Assembly (NCBI GenBank): GCA_017624235.1
Contig: JAGANL010000006.1
Coordinates: 124,001-188,000, forward strand
Direction of reading: 5' to 3'
Length of the DNA: 64,000 bases
Source of the DNA: Lachnospiraceae bacterium
GTDB taxonomy: Bacteria > Bacillota > Clostridia > Lachnospirales > Lachnospiraceae
Shown here: one piece after another, positions 10,668 through 63,058 of the stretch
How the letters are laid out: each line of letters begins with the position of its first letter
Position numbering within the stretch: the stretch's first letter is position 1
Made by a program: the position numbers and the translations under genes
Notes under the pieces: generated by a model
Database searches by the model: none
What the model saw: only the letters and a program-made list of their open reading frames with translations
Told to the model about the DNA's origin: nothing

Positions 10668-10941
10668 AGGAATAAATGGAAAGGAAAAAGGCAGAGAACG
10701 GAAAGAGTACATAGTAAGGAGAGCAAAGAGAGGAACGGTCATCGGCTGAAAGCGGTTCTGCAGGAATTATTATGGAAGTGCATCCGGGAGCTGACTGTGT
10801 GAAGGAATATTCAGATTCTGTTAGCATGGTACGTGTTACGCTCGTTACGCGCAAAAAGAGAAAGTTTTTTTAACTTTAAGTAGAGTGGAACCGCGGATAA
10901 CTTCGTCTCTAATGGGGCAAAGGTTAGACGCGGTATTTTTT
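10668..10941 (+). promoter_or_regulatory. T-box riboswitch (tRNA-Cys sensing) before cysE-cysS
   Basis: The T-box core GAGTGGAACCGCGG (10883-10896) is followed by an intrinsic terminator whose 3' arm GACGCGGT (10926-10933) ends in TATTTTTT. The ACCGCG of the T-box pairs either in the antiterminator or with this arm. Upstream is a long structured stem I region. TGC at 10779-10781 is in a suitable place for a Cys specifier codon and agrees with the genes controlled, although I did not fold the RNA. Uncharged tRNA-Cys would bind and allow read-through into cysE-cysS. Confidence 0.9.
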
Positions 10942-58663: not shown

Positions 58664-58692
58664 TTGACAAATGGAGTGATTCTTCATATAAT
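58664..58692 (+). promoter_or_regulatory. Sigma-A promoter of the cysK leader
   Basis: TTGACA (58664-58669), exact 17-nt spacer, TATAAT (58687-58692): perfect consensus. Start of transcription is expected near 58699. Confidence 0.9.
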
Positions 58693-58748
58693 GATTTCAT
58701 ACTTATCATACTAAATGTGTAGGAAATAAGAGAAAGGAGCGTAACGCT

Positions 58749-58850
58749 ATGAGAACAGGACATCAGGAAAATACAAAGGCTTATATGTGTTGTTGTTGTC
58801 AGGCTGTATTTATGTGTACAGTCCCGTTTGTCATGCGTTATGATACCTGA
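58749..58850 (+). CDS. Cys-rich leader peptide of a cysK transcription attenuator (33 aa)
   Basis: 33 codons with AAAGGAG nine bases upstream. Residues 14-17 are four consecutive cysteines, all TGT; a fifth Cys is residue 23. Leaders with runs of the regulatory amino acid are the hallmark of ribosome-mediated attenuation (trp, his, leu), and Cys-rich upstream ORFs do this in mycobacteria. Here GATACC near the end (58842-58847) and GCG at 58835-58837 can pair with GGTATC-CGC (58898-58906) in the terminator's 3' arm. A ribosome stalled on the Cys codons leaves those bases free; one that finishes covers them. Confidence 0.85.
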   Translation: MRTGHQENTKAYMCCCCQAVFMCTVPFVMRYDT

Positions 58851-58883
58851 ATGAAACACTTTCACAGAAAAGAGTGAGAGGCT

Positions 58884-58913
58884 GCGGGTACCATAATGGT
58901 ATCCGCTTTTTTT
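58884..58913 (+). terminator. Attenuator terminator before cysK
   Basis: GCGGGTACCA (58884-58893) pairs with TGGTATCCGC (58897-58906), a 10-bp stem with a TAA loop, followed by seven Ts. It is 33 bases after the leader stop and 70 before cysK, and its 3' arm overlaps the proposed antiterminator. Confidence 0.92.
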
Positions 58914-58983
58914 ATACGCAGCTCGCGGAGATGAAATGAGCCGTATAACGGCAGTAAAGAAAAAGATTAAGGAGGATAAAAAC

Positions 58984-59922
58984 ATGAGTCAGATTAAGGA
59001 AAGCGCATTGGAACTGATTGGAGGGACCCCGATTCTGAAGCTGAACCGCTATGCGGAGAAGGCGGGAGTCAGAGATGCAGTAATTCTGGGAAAGCTGGAG
59101 TACCTGAATCCGGCAGGTTCTGTGAAGGATCGTATTGCATTTGCCATGATTGAGGATGCGGAGAAACAGGGAATCTTGAAGCCGGGTGCGACTATCATTG
59201 AGCCGACCTCGGGAAATACCGGAATCGGTCTGGCAGCCGTAGCGGCAGCCAAGGGCTATAAGGCTATCCTGACACTGCCGGATACCATGAGCGTAGAGCG
59301 CCGCAATCTGCTGGCAGCCTATGGGGCTGAGCTGGTACTGACAGAAGGAGCGAAGGGAATGAAGGGAGCCATTGCAAAGGCAGAAGAGCTGCATGAATCG
59401 ATTCCGGGTTCCGTGATTCTCGGACAGTTTGTAAATCCGGCAAATCCGGCGGCACATAAGGCAACGACAGGACCGGAAATCTGGGAGCAGACGGAGGGCA
59501 AGGTCGATATCTTCGTGGCAGGTGTCGGCACAGGCGGTACGATTACCGGTGTTGGTGAGTACTTAAAGGAGAAGAATCCGAATGTGAAGATCGTGGCAGT
59601 GGAGCCGGCGACCAGTCCGGTACTTTCACAGGGAACTTCAGGTGCACATAAGATTCAGGGAATTGGCGCAGGCTTTGTACCGGAGGTCTTAAATACCAGG
59701 GTATATGATGAGGTGCTTGCCATTGAAAATGACGATGCGTTTGCAGAAGGAAAGGCCTTTGCAGTCAGTGAGGGTATATTAGTTGGAATTTCTTCGGGAG
59801 CCGCCTTAAAGGCAGCCACGATTCTGGCATCCAGACCGGAGAACAAGGGAAAGACCATTGTAGCATTGCTGCCGGATTCCGGTGACAGGTATCTTTCTAC
59901 GCCACTGTTTAGCAATAACTGA
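58984..59922 (+). CDS. cysK: O-acetylserine sulfhydrylase (cysteine synthase)
   Basis: 312-residue fold-type II PLP enzyme making cysteine from O-acetylserine and sulfide. The PLP lysine is in GSVKDRIAF, the substrate loop in [14 protein letters not shown], the phosphate-binding [14 protein letters not shown] and a C-terminal [14 protein letters not shown] 58984 is chosen because AAGGAGG lies eight bases upstream; a longer frame from 58936 runs into the attenuator. Preceded by a cysteine leader-peptide attenuator and followed by yezD. Its partner CysE is at 11011. Confidence 0.97.
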
Positions 59923-59966: not shown

Positions 59967-60116
59967 ATGGAAAAGACATTCAAAAAGGAGCAGGTCAGTA
60001 GCCAGCTGGAGCTGATAGAGAAACTGATTCACAGCATACAATACGGAACCATAACGATTATCATTCAGGATGGAAAAATCGTTCAAATTGATAAAAGTGA
60101 GAAATACCGAATTTAA
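59967..60116 (+). CDS. yezD: YezD-family small protein (DUF2292)
   Basis: 49 residues, too short for ordinary calling. IHSIQYGTITIIIQDGKIVQIDKSEKYRI-type strands (short pieces: SIQYGT, IIQDGKIVQI, EKYRI) match DUF2292/YezD, a family common near sulfur-assimilation genes. Function unknown. GGGGAGATT precedes ATG 59967. It lies 44 bases after cysK and before a terminator, so it is probably cotranscribed. Confidence 0.85.
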   Translation: MEKTFKKEQVSSQLELIEKLIHSIQYGTITIIIQDGKIVQIDKSEKYRI

Positions 60117-60242: not shown

Positions 60243-61160
60243 ATGAGCAATAACTATGAAGCACTACAAAAGTCCCACCCCTGTTTTGGAGGGCAGAAAA
60301 ACAATGTGGGGCGTATTCATCTTCCGGTCAGTCCGGGCTGTAATATTGAGTGTCGGTTCTGTGAGCGTTCAATCAATGATGAGGAAAACCGTCCCGGTGT
60401 GACATCCAGAGTTCTTTCACCGGAGGAGGCGCTTGAGGTACTGGGAAAAGCGCTGGAATTGTGTCCGGAAATCACGGTAGCCGGAATAGCGGGGCCGGGA
60501 GATACTCTGGCCAGTGATTATGCGTTGCAGACCTTCCGGTTGATTGGAAAGAAGTATCCGGGGATGCTCAAATGTATGAGTACGAATGGGCTGCTGCTGC
60601 CGGAGCGGGCGGAGGAAATCGTAGAAGTCGGAATAGATTCACTAACCGTCACAGTCAACGCGGTAGACCCGGAAATTGAGGCGAAGCTGAATCAATACAT
60701 TGTGTATCACGGAAAACGTTATGAGGAGGAAGAAGCAGCCAAAATACTGATTGAAAATCAGTTAGCCGGCATCCGTAAGGTTGCAGAGGCCGGTATTACC
60801 ATCAAGGTCAATACCGTGCTGGTGCCTGACATCAATGGCAGTCATATAGAAGAAATTGCCAGATGCGTAAAGGATGCGGGCGCCAGCATCTATAACATTA
60901 TTCCGTTGATTCCACAGGCACAGCTAAAAGGACATCCCGCTCCTGTCTGCGCAGAGATTGATGAGGCCAGGACAAGGGCAGGAAAGTATATCGATGTATT
61001 TCGCCATTGTCAGCACTGTCGGGCGGATGCGGCAGGCGTGCCGGGCAAATCGGAATATGGGGATCAGATCTATCAGAGAATCTCTATACTTTTAGAACAG
61101 GTGTTACAGAGATGGGAACAGAGGTTGGAAAAACGTAAGAAATTAGTGGCAAGGAGGTAA
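60243..61160 (+). CDS. NifB-like radical SAM protein
   Basis: About 305 residues. Radical SAM CxxxCxxC is seen as SPGCNIECRFCERS (about 37-50), preceded by HPCFGGQKNN-RIHLPV and followed by NEENRPG-type (NDEENRPGVTSR), the NifB entry signature. A second cluster motif, FRHCQHCRADAAGVPG, is at ~260-275. ATG 60243 has AAGAGG upstream. NifB builds NifB-co for nitrogenases, yet no nifHDK-type gene is visible; the C-terminal NifX domain is absent. A role in sulfur metabolism is possible from the neighbours. Confidence 0.88.
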   Translation: MSNNYEALQKSHPCFGGQKNNVGRIHLPVSPGCNIECRFCERSINDEENRPGVTSRVLSPEEALEVLGKALELCPEITVAGIAGPGDTLASDYALQTFRLIGKKYPGMLKCMSTNGLLLPERAEEIVEVGIDSLTVTVNAVDPEIEAKLNQYIVYHGKRYEEEEAAKILIENQLAGIRKVAEAGITIKVNTVLVPDINGSHIEEIARCVKDAGASIYNIIPLIPQAQLKGHPAPVCAEIDEARTRAGKYIDVFRHCQHCRADAAGVPGKSEYGDQIYQRISILLEQVLQRWEQRLEKRKKLVARR

Positions 61161-61166
61161 GAAGTC

Positions 61167-61868
61167 ATGAAATGGCATTTTTTATACCGGACCTTTCTGC
61201 TGTGTTTAAAGGGTGTACCCACAACACTGCTGATTACGATATTAACCTTAGTGTTTTCCAGTATTCCGGCCATAGGGATTGCCGTAATCAGAAGTAAGCG
61301 GGTGCCCGTGCTACAGAAGATTTGTAGTGTGTATGTGTCTTTTATCAGGGGGACACCGGCAATCGTACAGATTTATCTGCTATATAATACCCTTGCAAGC
61401 ATACTGACCGTATGGTTTGAAAAAAATAATGTTTCCATTAACGTCTTTGACATTAGTCCGATTGTTTTTGCAGTAATTGTATTTACTCTAAACATTACAG
61501 CAACGATGTCGGAGGTAGTCCGGTCAGCTTTGCTAACGGTGGATAAGGGGCAGATGGAGGCAGCTGTATCCATTGGATTAAGTGAGCTGCAGGGGTTTTT
61601 ACGGGTGGTATTTCCACAGGCGCTGGTGTCGGCAATACCTAATTTATGTACCCTGATTGTTAATCTGATTAAGATGACCTCGTTAGCTTTTGCTATGACT
61701 GTAAAGGATATCACAGCAATTGCTAAAATTGAGGCGGGAAGCTCCTATAATTATATAGAGGCATATCTGGATATCTTTGTCATCTATTTGATTTTGTGCA
61801 TAGTGATTGAAAAAATGTTTCAGAAATTGGAGAGGAATTTGAGCAGATATAAGGCAATTGCAGATTAA
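61167..61868 (+). CDS. Amino-acid ABC transporter permease (orphan)
   Basis: 233 residues, five predicted helices. PTTLLITILTLVFSS and FIRGTPAIVQIYLLYN are the usual HisM/GlnP permease signatures, and the EAA-type loop appears as AAVSIGLSELQGFLRVVFPQAL. AAGGAGG lies eight bases upstream. No ATPase or binding protein gene is adjacent, so it must use partners encoded elsewhere. Context suggests cystine, cysteine or methionine import. Confidence 0.87.
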   Translation: MKWHFLYRTFLLCLKGVPTTLLITILTLVFSSIPAIGIAVIRSKRVPVLQKICSVYVSFIRGTPAIVQIYLLYNTLASILTVWFEKNNVSINVFDISPIVFAVIVFTLNITATMSEVVRSALLTVDKGQMEAAVSIGLSELQGFLRVVFPQALVSAIPNLCTLIVNLIKMTSLAFAMTVKDITAIAKIEAGSSYNYIEAYLDIFVIYLILCIVIEKMFQKLERNLSRYKAIAD

Positions 61869-61918: not shown

Positions 61919-63058
61919 ATGCGGGAAAAAACAAGACTGGTACATGGATATACGGGAATCGATCAAAACACGGGAGCCATCAGCTTCCCAATCTATCAGG
62001 GGGTTACCTTTGCTCATCCGGCGCTGGGAGAAACCACCAGGGGATTTGCTTATGCAAGAGCAGACAGTCCCACCAGACAGGAGCTGGAACGGACGCTTGC
62101 GCTGCTGGAGCACGGAACAAGGGCATGGGCCTTTTCCAGCGGAATGTCTGCTATTTCGGTCTTTATCAAGCTGTTTGAGCCGGGAAGCCATCTGCTCGTA
62201 TCCGAGGATTTATATGGCGGCACTTACCGTCTGTTTACGGAAATATATGGCAAATACGGATTGGAATTTGATTATGTGGATACCAGTAATCTGGAAGTGG
62301 TAAAAGCGGCTATCCGGCCGAATACGAAGGGAATTTTTATAGAGACGCCATCCAATCCGATGATGCACGTGACAGATATCCGTGCCGTTTCGGAGGTGAT
62401 TCGGGAGGCTGGTGGTGTTGTGGCAGTGGATAATACATTCCTGTCCCCCTATTTTCAAAAGCCGCTTGATTTTGGGGCAGATATCGTCATACATAGTGCT
62501 ACAAAGTATATCGGCGGTCATAACGATGTGCTGGCAGGAGCCCTGATCGTTCGGAATGAAAAGTGGATAGAACCTATTTCCCGGCTGGCCATGTCAGAGG
62601 GAGGCACGCTGGGACCACATGACAGCTGGCTGCTGCTTCGCAGCCTGAAGACGCTTTCCGTGCGCATGGACAGACAGCAGGAAAATGCGCTGCACCTTGT
62701 GGAATATCTGAAAAAGCATCCGAAGGTGGAAGCGGTGTATTACGTAGGTGATCCGGAGCATCCCGATTATGAAACAACGTTAAAACAGACGACTGGCTAT
62801 GGCGGCATGATTTCCTTTTCACTAAAGAGCGGGGAAAAGGTGCCGGATCTTCTCAAACGGTTTAAGGTCATTACCTTTGCGGAAAGTCTTGGAGGCGTAG
62901 AAAGCCTGATCACTTATCCGATGGTACAGACGCATGGAGCGATTCCGGTGGAGATGCGGGAAAGGCTTGGAGTCAACGAAAAGCTGCTTCGGATGTCGGT
63001 CGGAATTGAGGATGTGGAGGATCTGCTGGAAGATCTGGAGCAGGCGCTTTCCATCTGA
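61919..63058 (+). CDS. Trans-sulfuration PLP enzyme (cystathionine gamma-lyase/synthase, MccB/MetB type)
   Basis: 379-residue Cys/Met-metabolism PLP family. RADSPTRQELERTLA binding loop, YGGTYRLF (Tyr contacting PLP), VDNTFLSPYFQKPLDFGADIV and the PLP lysine in HSATKYIGGHNDV are clear, with ESLGGVESLITYP near the end. This family includes cystathionine gamma-synthase, gamma-lyase, and methionine gamma-lyase, which motifs alone do not separate. Next to cysK and a permease it would interconvert cysteine and methionine sulfur or release it. AAAGG precedes the ATG. Confidence 0.9.
   Translation: MREKTRLVHGYTGIDQNTGAISFPIYQGVTFAHPALGETTRGFAYARADSPTRQELERTLALLEHGTRAWAFSSGMSAISVFIKLFEPGSHLLVSEDLYGGTYRLFTEIYGKYGLEFDYVDTSNLEVVKAAIRPNTKGIFIETPSNPMMHVTDIRAVSEVIREAGGVVAVDNTFLSPYFQKPLDFGADIVIHSATKYIGGHNDVLAGALIVRNEKWIEPISRLAMSEGGTLGPHDSWLLLRSLKTLSVRMDRQQENALHLVEYLKKHPKVEAVYYVGDPEHPDYETTLKQTTGYGGMISFSLKSGEKVPDLLKRFKVITFAESLGGVESLITYPMVQTHGAIPVEMRERLGVNEKLLRMSVGIEDVEDLLEDLEQALSI

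Follow-up and report, generated by a model that had tools for sequence, protein, structure and literature searches.

We identified a putative cysteine leader-peptide attenuator upstream of the cysteine synthase gene cysK in a Lachnospiraceae bacterium, within a 64,000-nucleotide stretch of genomic DNA (hereafter, the window). The most probable reading, to which we assign a probability of roughly 0.86, is transcription attenuation mediated by the ribosome, with charged tRNA-Cys as the signal and with cysK, probably together with the sulfur genes behind it, as the target. That cysK might be governed by such a leader in a Firmicute had been proposed in an initial annotation of the window, and comparison within a family of related leaders supports the proposal. 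The same comparison supports the predicted Cys leader ORF, a hairpin after the Cys codons, a terminator, and pairings between RNA segments designated R1:R2, R2:R3 and R3:R4, from which we infer that the RNA would switch between alternative structures.

Organization of the cysK leader locus

Features of the locus are as follows, with the evidence in brackets. R4 designates the 3' arm of the terminator, and R3:R4 the terminator helix.

58664..58692, plus strand: sigma-70-type promoter, TTGACA-17-TATAAT (12/12 consensus match)
58734..58753, plus strand: Region 1 (R1), leader Shine-Dalgarno sequence AAGGAG and start-codon region (permutation tests)
58749..58850, plus strand: leader peptide ORF of 33 codons, MRTGHQENTKAYMCCCCQAVFMCTVPFVMRYDT (sequence and relatives)
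58788..58799, plus strand: four consecutive Cys codons (14–17), proposed stall site (sequence and relatives)
58802..58823, plus strand: ORF hairpin GGCUGUAU/GUACAGUC just 3' of the Cys run, proposed pause hairpin (pairing in 10 members)
58833..58850, plus strand: Region 2 (R2), ORF end and stop codon, partner of R1 or R3 (permutation tests)
58884..58897, plus strand: Region 3 (R3), terminator 5' arm and loop, proposed antiterminator partner of R2 (permutation tests)
58884..58913, plus strand: intrinsic terminator (R3:R4) with seven U (terminator scan; covariation in 10 members)
58984..59922, plus strand: cysK, cysteine synthase A (NCBIfam TIGR01139, PF00291)

The promoter, the 33-codon ORF with four consecutive Cys codons, the terminator and cysK with its own AAGGAGG were all recovered where the initial annotation had placed them. 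Codons 14–17 are all TGT, and a further Cys is present at codon 23. The terminator hairpin (58884–58906) has 10 pairs and a loop of 3 and is followed by seven T; a terminator-scan match alone is not evidence, because the 3 kb around the leader contained 3 terminator-like sites compared to 2.4 expected from shuffles. The cysK product scored 445 bits against TIGR01139 (cut-off 351).

The leader RNA was more structured than 200 of 200 shuffled sequences (z −3.6 for 58700–58981 and −4.0 for 58790–58920). Such an excess would also be expected if a structured RNA, such as a riboswitch or a T-box, set termination and the Cys codons were incidental. However, no Rfam family reached its gathering score at the window leader, neither the window nor 18 related sources had an Rfam match at the leader (in the related sources, only three tRNA genes matched), and the T-box covariance model gave no match at the leader in these same sequences. 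The one T-box in the window is located far from the leader, at 10685–10913. T-box leaders, which in Firmicutes couple termination to the sensing of tRNA charging, have no leader ORF, whereas Cys codons were in frame behind a Shine-Dalgarno-like sequence in all 16 members collected here, an observation that is not an independent test because the Cys codons themselves served in part to find the members. We consider this explanation very improbable.

Two additional sequences were observed near the leader. Directly 3' of the terminator, 58917–58951 is a short interspersed repeat, with two more close copies in the genome (C44 and C9) and weaker matches in C49 and in genome G001. In 58700–58735 and in many other cysK upstream regions, a CCTA...TAGGAA-like motif was seen by eye near the promoter; it is reminiscent of the CymR operator, which we presume only as a putative assignment.

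Distribution of the leader family

When the window peptide was used as the sole query against 299 genomes of the same bacterial family, the one strong match was the window itself (next E 0.010). Since this search found nothing convincing, cysK upstream regions were read directly. A cysK match was present in 275 of the 299 genomes, and the upstream set consisted of 30 loci (including that of the window) and 40 more, minus L095, which had no cysK match, that is, 69 regions. ORFs with at least three Cys in six residues accounted for 10 of 300 forward ORFs in these regions and for 2 of 257 reverse-strand ORFs; with at least two Cys in six residues, there was no forward excess (29/300 vs. 34/257). 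No Cys-dense ORF (at least three Cys in six residues) occurred in 59 of the 69 regions. Among the ten Cys-dense ORFs, the same leader was clear in five besides the window (L038, L041, L046, L070 and L062, the last being the same place as L158), and the remaining ones were L044, L049, L056 and L093. L056 resembles L158 and was left outside the final set of 16; L044, L049, L093 and L104, which contain Cys-rich ORFs ahead of cysK, were also kept outside the family.

A profile of five leaders, searched against 397 genomes of the bacterial family, added L111 and, weakly, L135 and L113. An exact DNA pattern occurred in 14 stretches of a named genome collection. Five of these belonged to Lachnospiraceae MAGs and all five had the leader and terminator, a layout found in none of the nine stretches from other organisms. 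Three of the MAG stretches were identical to the loci of G236, G162 and G269 over the whole shared 2.8 to 3.9 kb, and two were new (L137 and L145). In 12 of the 397 genomes, a covariance model built from ten members gave 13 matches with E below 1e-5, eight already in the model and five new (L157, L158, L159, L160 and L161). One further locus, L164 (E 8.3e-5), was accepted by eye, as it has a CCC leader and a terminator ahead of a Cys/Met enzyme. Together with L164, the ten model members and the five new loci form the 16-member set, in which two are doubtful: L113, and L135 (G162:C19), a second leader copy in its genome whose ORF stops early and whose cysK is apparently reduced to a remnant (called by eye). 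The predicted leader family thus has 16 members, all in one bacterial family, which we call Lachnospiraceae because of the identity to named MAG contigs. The initial annotation had named absent conservation of the Cys run or of competing stems in relatives as grounds for rejecting it; at this family level, the Cys run is conserved, and so are competing stems when scored by pairing energy.

In addition, L162 (genome G339, E 4.6e-5), also ahead of cysK, has kept the terminator and the ORF-end segment and has lost the Cys ORF; it looks like a natural decayed copy. A class-wide search of 291 genomes with the covariance model gave no place outside the bacterial family below 1e-5, the best being L165 at 6.9e-5; L163, L165 and L166 were rejected by eye. 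Of 20 weak model places (E 2e-4 to 0.05), five had a Cys- or Met/Cys-rich leader (L173, L174, L175, L180 and L187) and the other 15 were not accepted, some from reading the sequence and some from an ORF scan only. In L175 (G171:C37), a CCCC leader ORF and a terminator precede a large ORF that is methyltransferase-like by eye only. A plasmid collection had 62 matching records, and among the five listed the match was confined to the cysK part of the query. The only genome of the same genus that was compared (G001, 88% complete) had just one cysK match at the applied cut-off, with no such leader upstream; this cysK adjoins metN, as does the second, leaderless cysK of the window genome.

Leader anatomy

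A (TGT)n run could by itself be a DNA repeat; the 16 leaders, however, contain 60 TGT and 17 TGC codons, and this mixture among relatives implies that it is Cys, not a repeated DNA unit, that is conserved. At least two adjacent Cys codons were present in 15 of the 16 members, the exception being L161, which has M-C-M-C only. Ahead of the run come 9 to 20 residues of variable sequence. Downstream, the hairpin that follows the Cys run (ACUGUAU/AUACGGU type) had 88.8% of cells paired in the ten members examined; one of its eight pairs was changed on both sides (in L113) and five on one side only. For the terminator, 7 of 12 pairs were changed on both sides in the ten members. The structure as a whole was 90.5% paired; shuffles gave 83.7%, and sliding gave no more than 47.7%. 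A hairpin with a U-rich tail was present in all 16 members, with a weak tail in L135 and L160.

The ORF stops at ACC UGA in six members (the window, L038, L041, L046, L137 and L145), and four of them (L038, L041, L137 and L145) share one identical peptide end, VYFSYALCT. This identity might suggest that the small peptide is a functional Cys-rich protein, for example a metal-binding one, rather than a regulatory read-out. Against such a function, the ORF ends early, soon after the hairpin, in L135, L157, L159 and L161, and the downstream RNA including the terminator is kept in these members. A role of the peptide as a protein in its own right is therefore highly unlikely in our estimate.

Competing pairings

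For each member, the pairing energy between its own R segments was compared with that of pairs permuted across members. In ten members, permuted pairs did as well as own pairs in fractions of only 0.0018 (R1:R2), 0.011 (R2:R3) and 0 of 5000 (R3:R4). Because the members are related, these fractions and those that follow are not exact probabilities. Six held-out members, which were found later and had no part in proposing the pairs, gave 0.009 for R1:R2 and 0.005 for R2:R3, and all 16 gave 0 of 20000 and 0.003, respectively. When scored by the longest uninterrupted helix in the 16 members, R1:R2 passed (0.0002) and R2:R3 was not significant (0.96). The negative control, R1:R3, was no better than permuted pairs (0.37, 16 members).

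In the window, R1:R2 involves 58740–58747 (CGUAACGC) and 58835–58842 (GCGUUAUG) at the end of the ORF. The corresponding segments are ACAAUGCA with UGCAUUGU in L041 and CGUCAUAAUGUA with UACAUUAUGAUG in L160. This predicted pairing of the leader ribosome-binding site (RBS) with the ORF end, absent from the initial annotation, is conserved better than R2:R3 by these tests. It is the best-supported alternative pairing, and the leader RBS is likely the protector segment. The initial annotation had instead paired the ORF end with the 3' arm of the terminator (GATACC:GGTATC, R2:R4). These 6 bp can form in the window, but across the 16 members R2:R4 was no better than permuted (0.23). A competing stem at the ORF end is conserved by pairing energy, but its partner is the 5' arm of the terminator (R3), not the 3' arm.

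Predicted switching and RNA folding

With enough Cys-tRNA, the ribosome would reach the end of the ORF and cover R2 or, alternatively, would come off the RNA and let R2 fold back onto R1; once R2 is covered or paired with R1, the terminator would form. When Cys-tRNA is short, the ribosome would wait at codons 14–17; if it is taken to cover ~15 nt ahead, its front edge would lie ~20 nt short of R2. A following ribosome on R1 would then leave R2 free to pair with the emerging R3, R4 would be left alone, and RNA polymerase would read through into cysK. The choice would have to fall between the emergence of R3 and that of R4.

We folded the nascent transcript, that is, before R4 is made, with assumed ribosome footprints. 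As means of the 16 members, the expected pairs were 7.0 for R2:R3 and 11.6 for R1:R2 in free RNA, 8.2 and 12.4 when a ribosome stood at the Cys run and the RBS was open, 11.4 and 0 when a second ribosome also covered R1, and 3.1 and 2.4 when the ribosome stood at the stop codon. The stalled-and-covered state exceeded the ribosome-at-stop state by more than one R2:R3 pair in 14 of 16 members (not L135 and L157, in which a ribosome at the early stop leaves R2:R3 unblocked) and exceeded free RNA by the same margin in 10 of 16 (not L046, L070, L111, L113, L135 and L137). A second ribosome on R1 would be needed because R1:R2 still forms when the RBS is open. Nascent folding thus suggests that completed translation leans to termination, and that stalling with a second ribosome at the start codon leans to antitermination.

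When the full-length RNA was folded at equilibrium, the terminator was favored on average in all states (mean P 0.84–0.92), so antitermination would have to be kinetic. L070 and L137 behaved in the opposite way to the model, with terminator probabilities of 0.10–0.25 when free or stalled alone and of 0.96 and 0.82, respectively, when the RBS was covered too. Full-length equilibrium folding does not demonstrate switching, and in these two members it contradicts it.

The persistence of the terminator in most states and members, together with the strength of R1:R2, would also fit an arrangement in which the leader is translated, R1:R2 closes its own RBS and acts mainly on leader translation, and the terminator is constitutive and partial. 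Two observations argue against it. R2:R3, which competes with the terminator, is retained by energy in the held-out members, and a promoter scan found no plus-strand promoter-like site between the terminator and cysK; one 9/12 site was found inside the leader ORF, upstream of the terminator. We regard such a constitutive terminator as improbable and favor attenuation by the translating ribosome.

Genes downstream of the leaders

In the window, cysK is followed by four genes:

59967..60116, plus strand: DUF2292 small protein (PF10055)
60243..61160, plus strand: NifB-like radical SAM protein (PF04055; NCBIfam nifB is the best model but under its cut-off)
61167..61868, plus strand: amino-acid ABC permease, with a cystine permease model closest (PF00528; cystine permease model under its cut-off)
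61919..63058, plus strand: Cys/Met metabolism PLP enzyme of the cystathionine lyase/synthase type (PF01053; best NCBIfam model under its cut-off)

The genes behind the predicted leaders are largely sulfur amino-acid genes, as judged from domain matches. The leader and terminator precede cysK in eight members (the window, L038, L041, L046, L070, L111, L158 and L159). Leaders were also found ahead of other genes. In L145, DUF2292 comes next, and then tRNA-Cys and genes for JAB-domain and ThiF-family proteins; in L157, the leader is followed by a gene for an NlpA/MetQ-type lipoprotein and one for a MetN-like ATPase. Solute-binding proteins of families 3 and 5 are encoded behind the leaders of L137 and L160, an ATPase with a NIL domain that was also matched in the MetN search behind that of L161, and a Cys/Met PLP enzyme and then a cysteine-synthase-like one behind that of L164. 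In L135, the cysK remnant is followed by DUF2292 and radical SAM-like ORFs, and in L113 the next ORF has a partial ABC ATPase match.

A tRNA-Cys gene (anticodon GCA) is located behind the leader in L111 (2896–2965), L145 (1043–1112) and L158 (286–355); no tRNA-Cys gene is present in the window. Genes for this tRNA were also observed in L056 (1599–1668), L037, L039, L042 and L061. In several members of the bacterial family they occur near cysK or DUF2292, some of them under a Cys leader.

Met/Cys-rich leaders upstream of metN

Because weak covariance-model matches included leaders rich in both Met and Cys ahead of MetN-type ATPases, metN upstream regions were surveyed. The set consisted of 93 regions, the first 90 in list order (G046 left out) plus L174, L180 and L187; L161 and L173 were removed from the count as duplicates. 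An ORF with at least eight Met or Cys in 15 residues was present in 15 of the 93 regions (12 of the 90 in list order: with the three added loci, L278, L273, L267, L259, L247, L279, L249, L238, L210, L180, L277, L261, L254, L187 and L174), and none of 404 reverse-strand ORFs in the metN regions had this composition. Examples are MKTTFHQNMNQNMMMTGCATMCMMCMMDMAY in L259 and MNTLSHPGFTSMNMMMCCCETMCMCNMCFTAF in L278. In all 15, a script detected a hairpin followed by at least four T no more than 170 nt from the stop codon, the weakest being that of L254. Support for R1:R2 was weak in this set (0.031), with the own pairing best in its row for 4 of 15. These leaders are possibly attenuators that respond to methionine and cysteine.

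Relation to known attenuators and implications

In the trp- and his-type attenuators of E. coli, a short ORF carries a run of regulatory codons, antiterminator and terminator are mutually exclusive, and a protector pairing (1:2) is present. The Lachnospiraceae leaders share the regulatory-codon ORF and would share the exclusive stems and the 1:2 protector. They differ from the E. coli systems in that a small hairpin follows the Cys codons and in that segment 1 is the leader RBS, upstream of the regulatory codons; because of this position, a stalled ribosome would not itself mask segment 1. Polycysteine leaders of actinobacteria are reportedly cysteine-responsive, judging from the title of a 2020 study by Canestrari. 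Where Proteobacteria rely on leader peptides, Firmicutes are described as depending mainly on T-boxes and riboswitches.

A few leader peptides of the regular kind are on record in Firmicutes too, for His (PMC2965389) and for branched-chain amino acids (PMC5794164). In bacilli, His leader peptides precede hisS and hisZ; they resemble our leaders in being regular leader peptides with a premature terminator and differ in amino acid, genes and sequence (PMC2965389). The leucine-rich attenuator peptide of Staphylococcus aureus ilv-leu, which has experimental support, is likewise a Firmicute leader ORF with codons for the product amino acid and a terminator, but it concerns branched-chain amino acids, other genes and another sequence (PMC5794164).

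Cys-codon leaders have been described in other phyla. The uORFC-8-2 motif ahead of cysS in Rhodobacterales, for which ribosome-mediated attenuation was proposed, also has Cys codons in a short ORF and then an intrinsic terminator (PMC8632094). Unlike the family described here, it is alphaproteobacterial, has two tandem Cys codons at 14–15 inside the first stem and regulates a tRNA synthetase; as described, gene, order and Cys-codon placement set the two apart (PMC8632094). Mycobacterial and other actinobacterial polycysteine leader ORFs also place runs of Cys codons ahead of cys genes (PMC1262725), and translation attenuation is given as their mechanism (PMC13236596). In these accounts, the mycobacterial ORFs are leaderless and no conserved terminator hairpin was found (PMC1262725, PMC13236596), whereas the window leader has both a Shine-Dalgarno-like sequence and a terminator. 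Among the open-licence literature matches listed, none concerned a leader-peptide attenuator for Cys or Met in Lachnospiraceae or other clostridia, an absence that is not proof because most subscription journals fall outside that scope.

The proposed mechanism, ribosome-mediated attenuation, is a known one; what is likely new is that cysteine would be sensed, in a group for which the matches listed gave no described case, with the leader RBS as the likely protector. Such leaders can be missed in annotation because their ORFs are so short. With its Cys run, three segments and natural variants (early stops and one copy without the Cys ORF), the system makes the order of events directly testable. 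The Cys leader family, together with the Met/Cys leaders of metN, would add a sensor of cysteine, and perhaps of methionine, to those of Firmicutes. On a broader view, whose chances we judge to be even, Lachnospiraceae may use leader peptides to govern part of their sulfur amino-acid economy, with Cys leaders for cysK, DUF2292/tRNA-Cys operons and uptake genes, and with Met and Cys leaders for metN that would sense both chargings together. As the protector in the Cys set would be the leader's own RBS, the switch would read whether a queue of ribosomes extends to the start codon, in addition to the position of a single ribosome.
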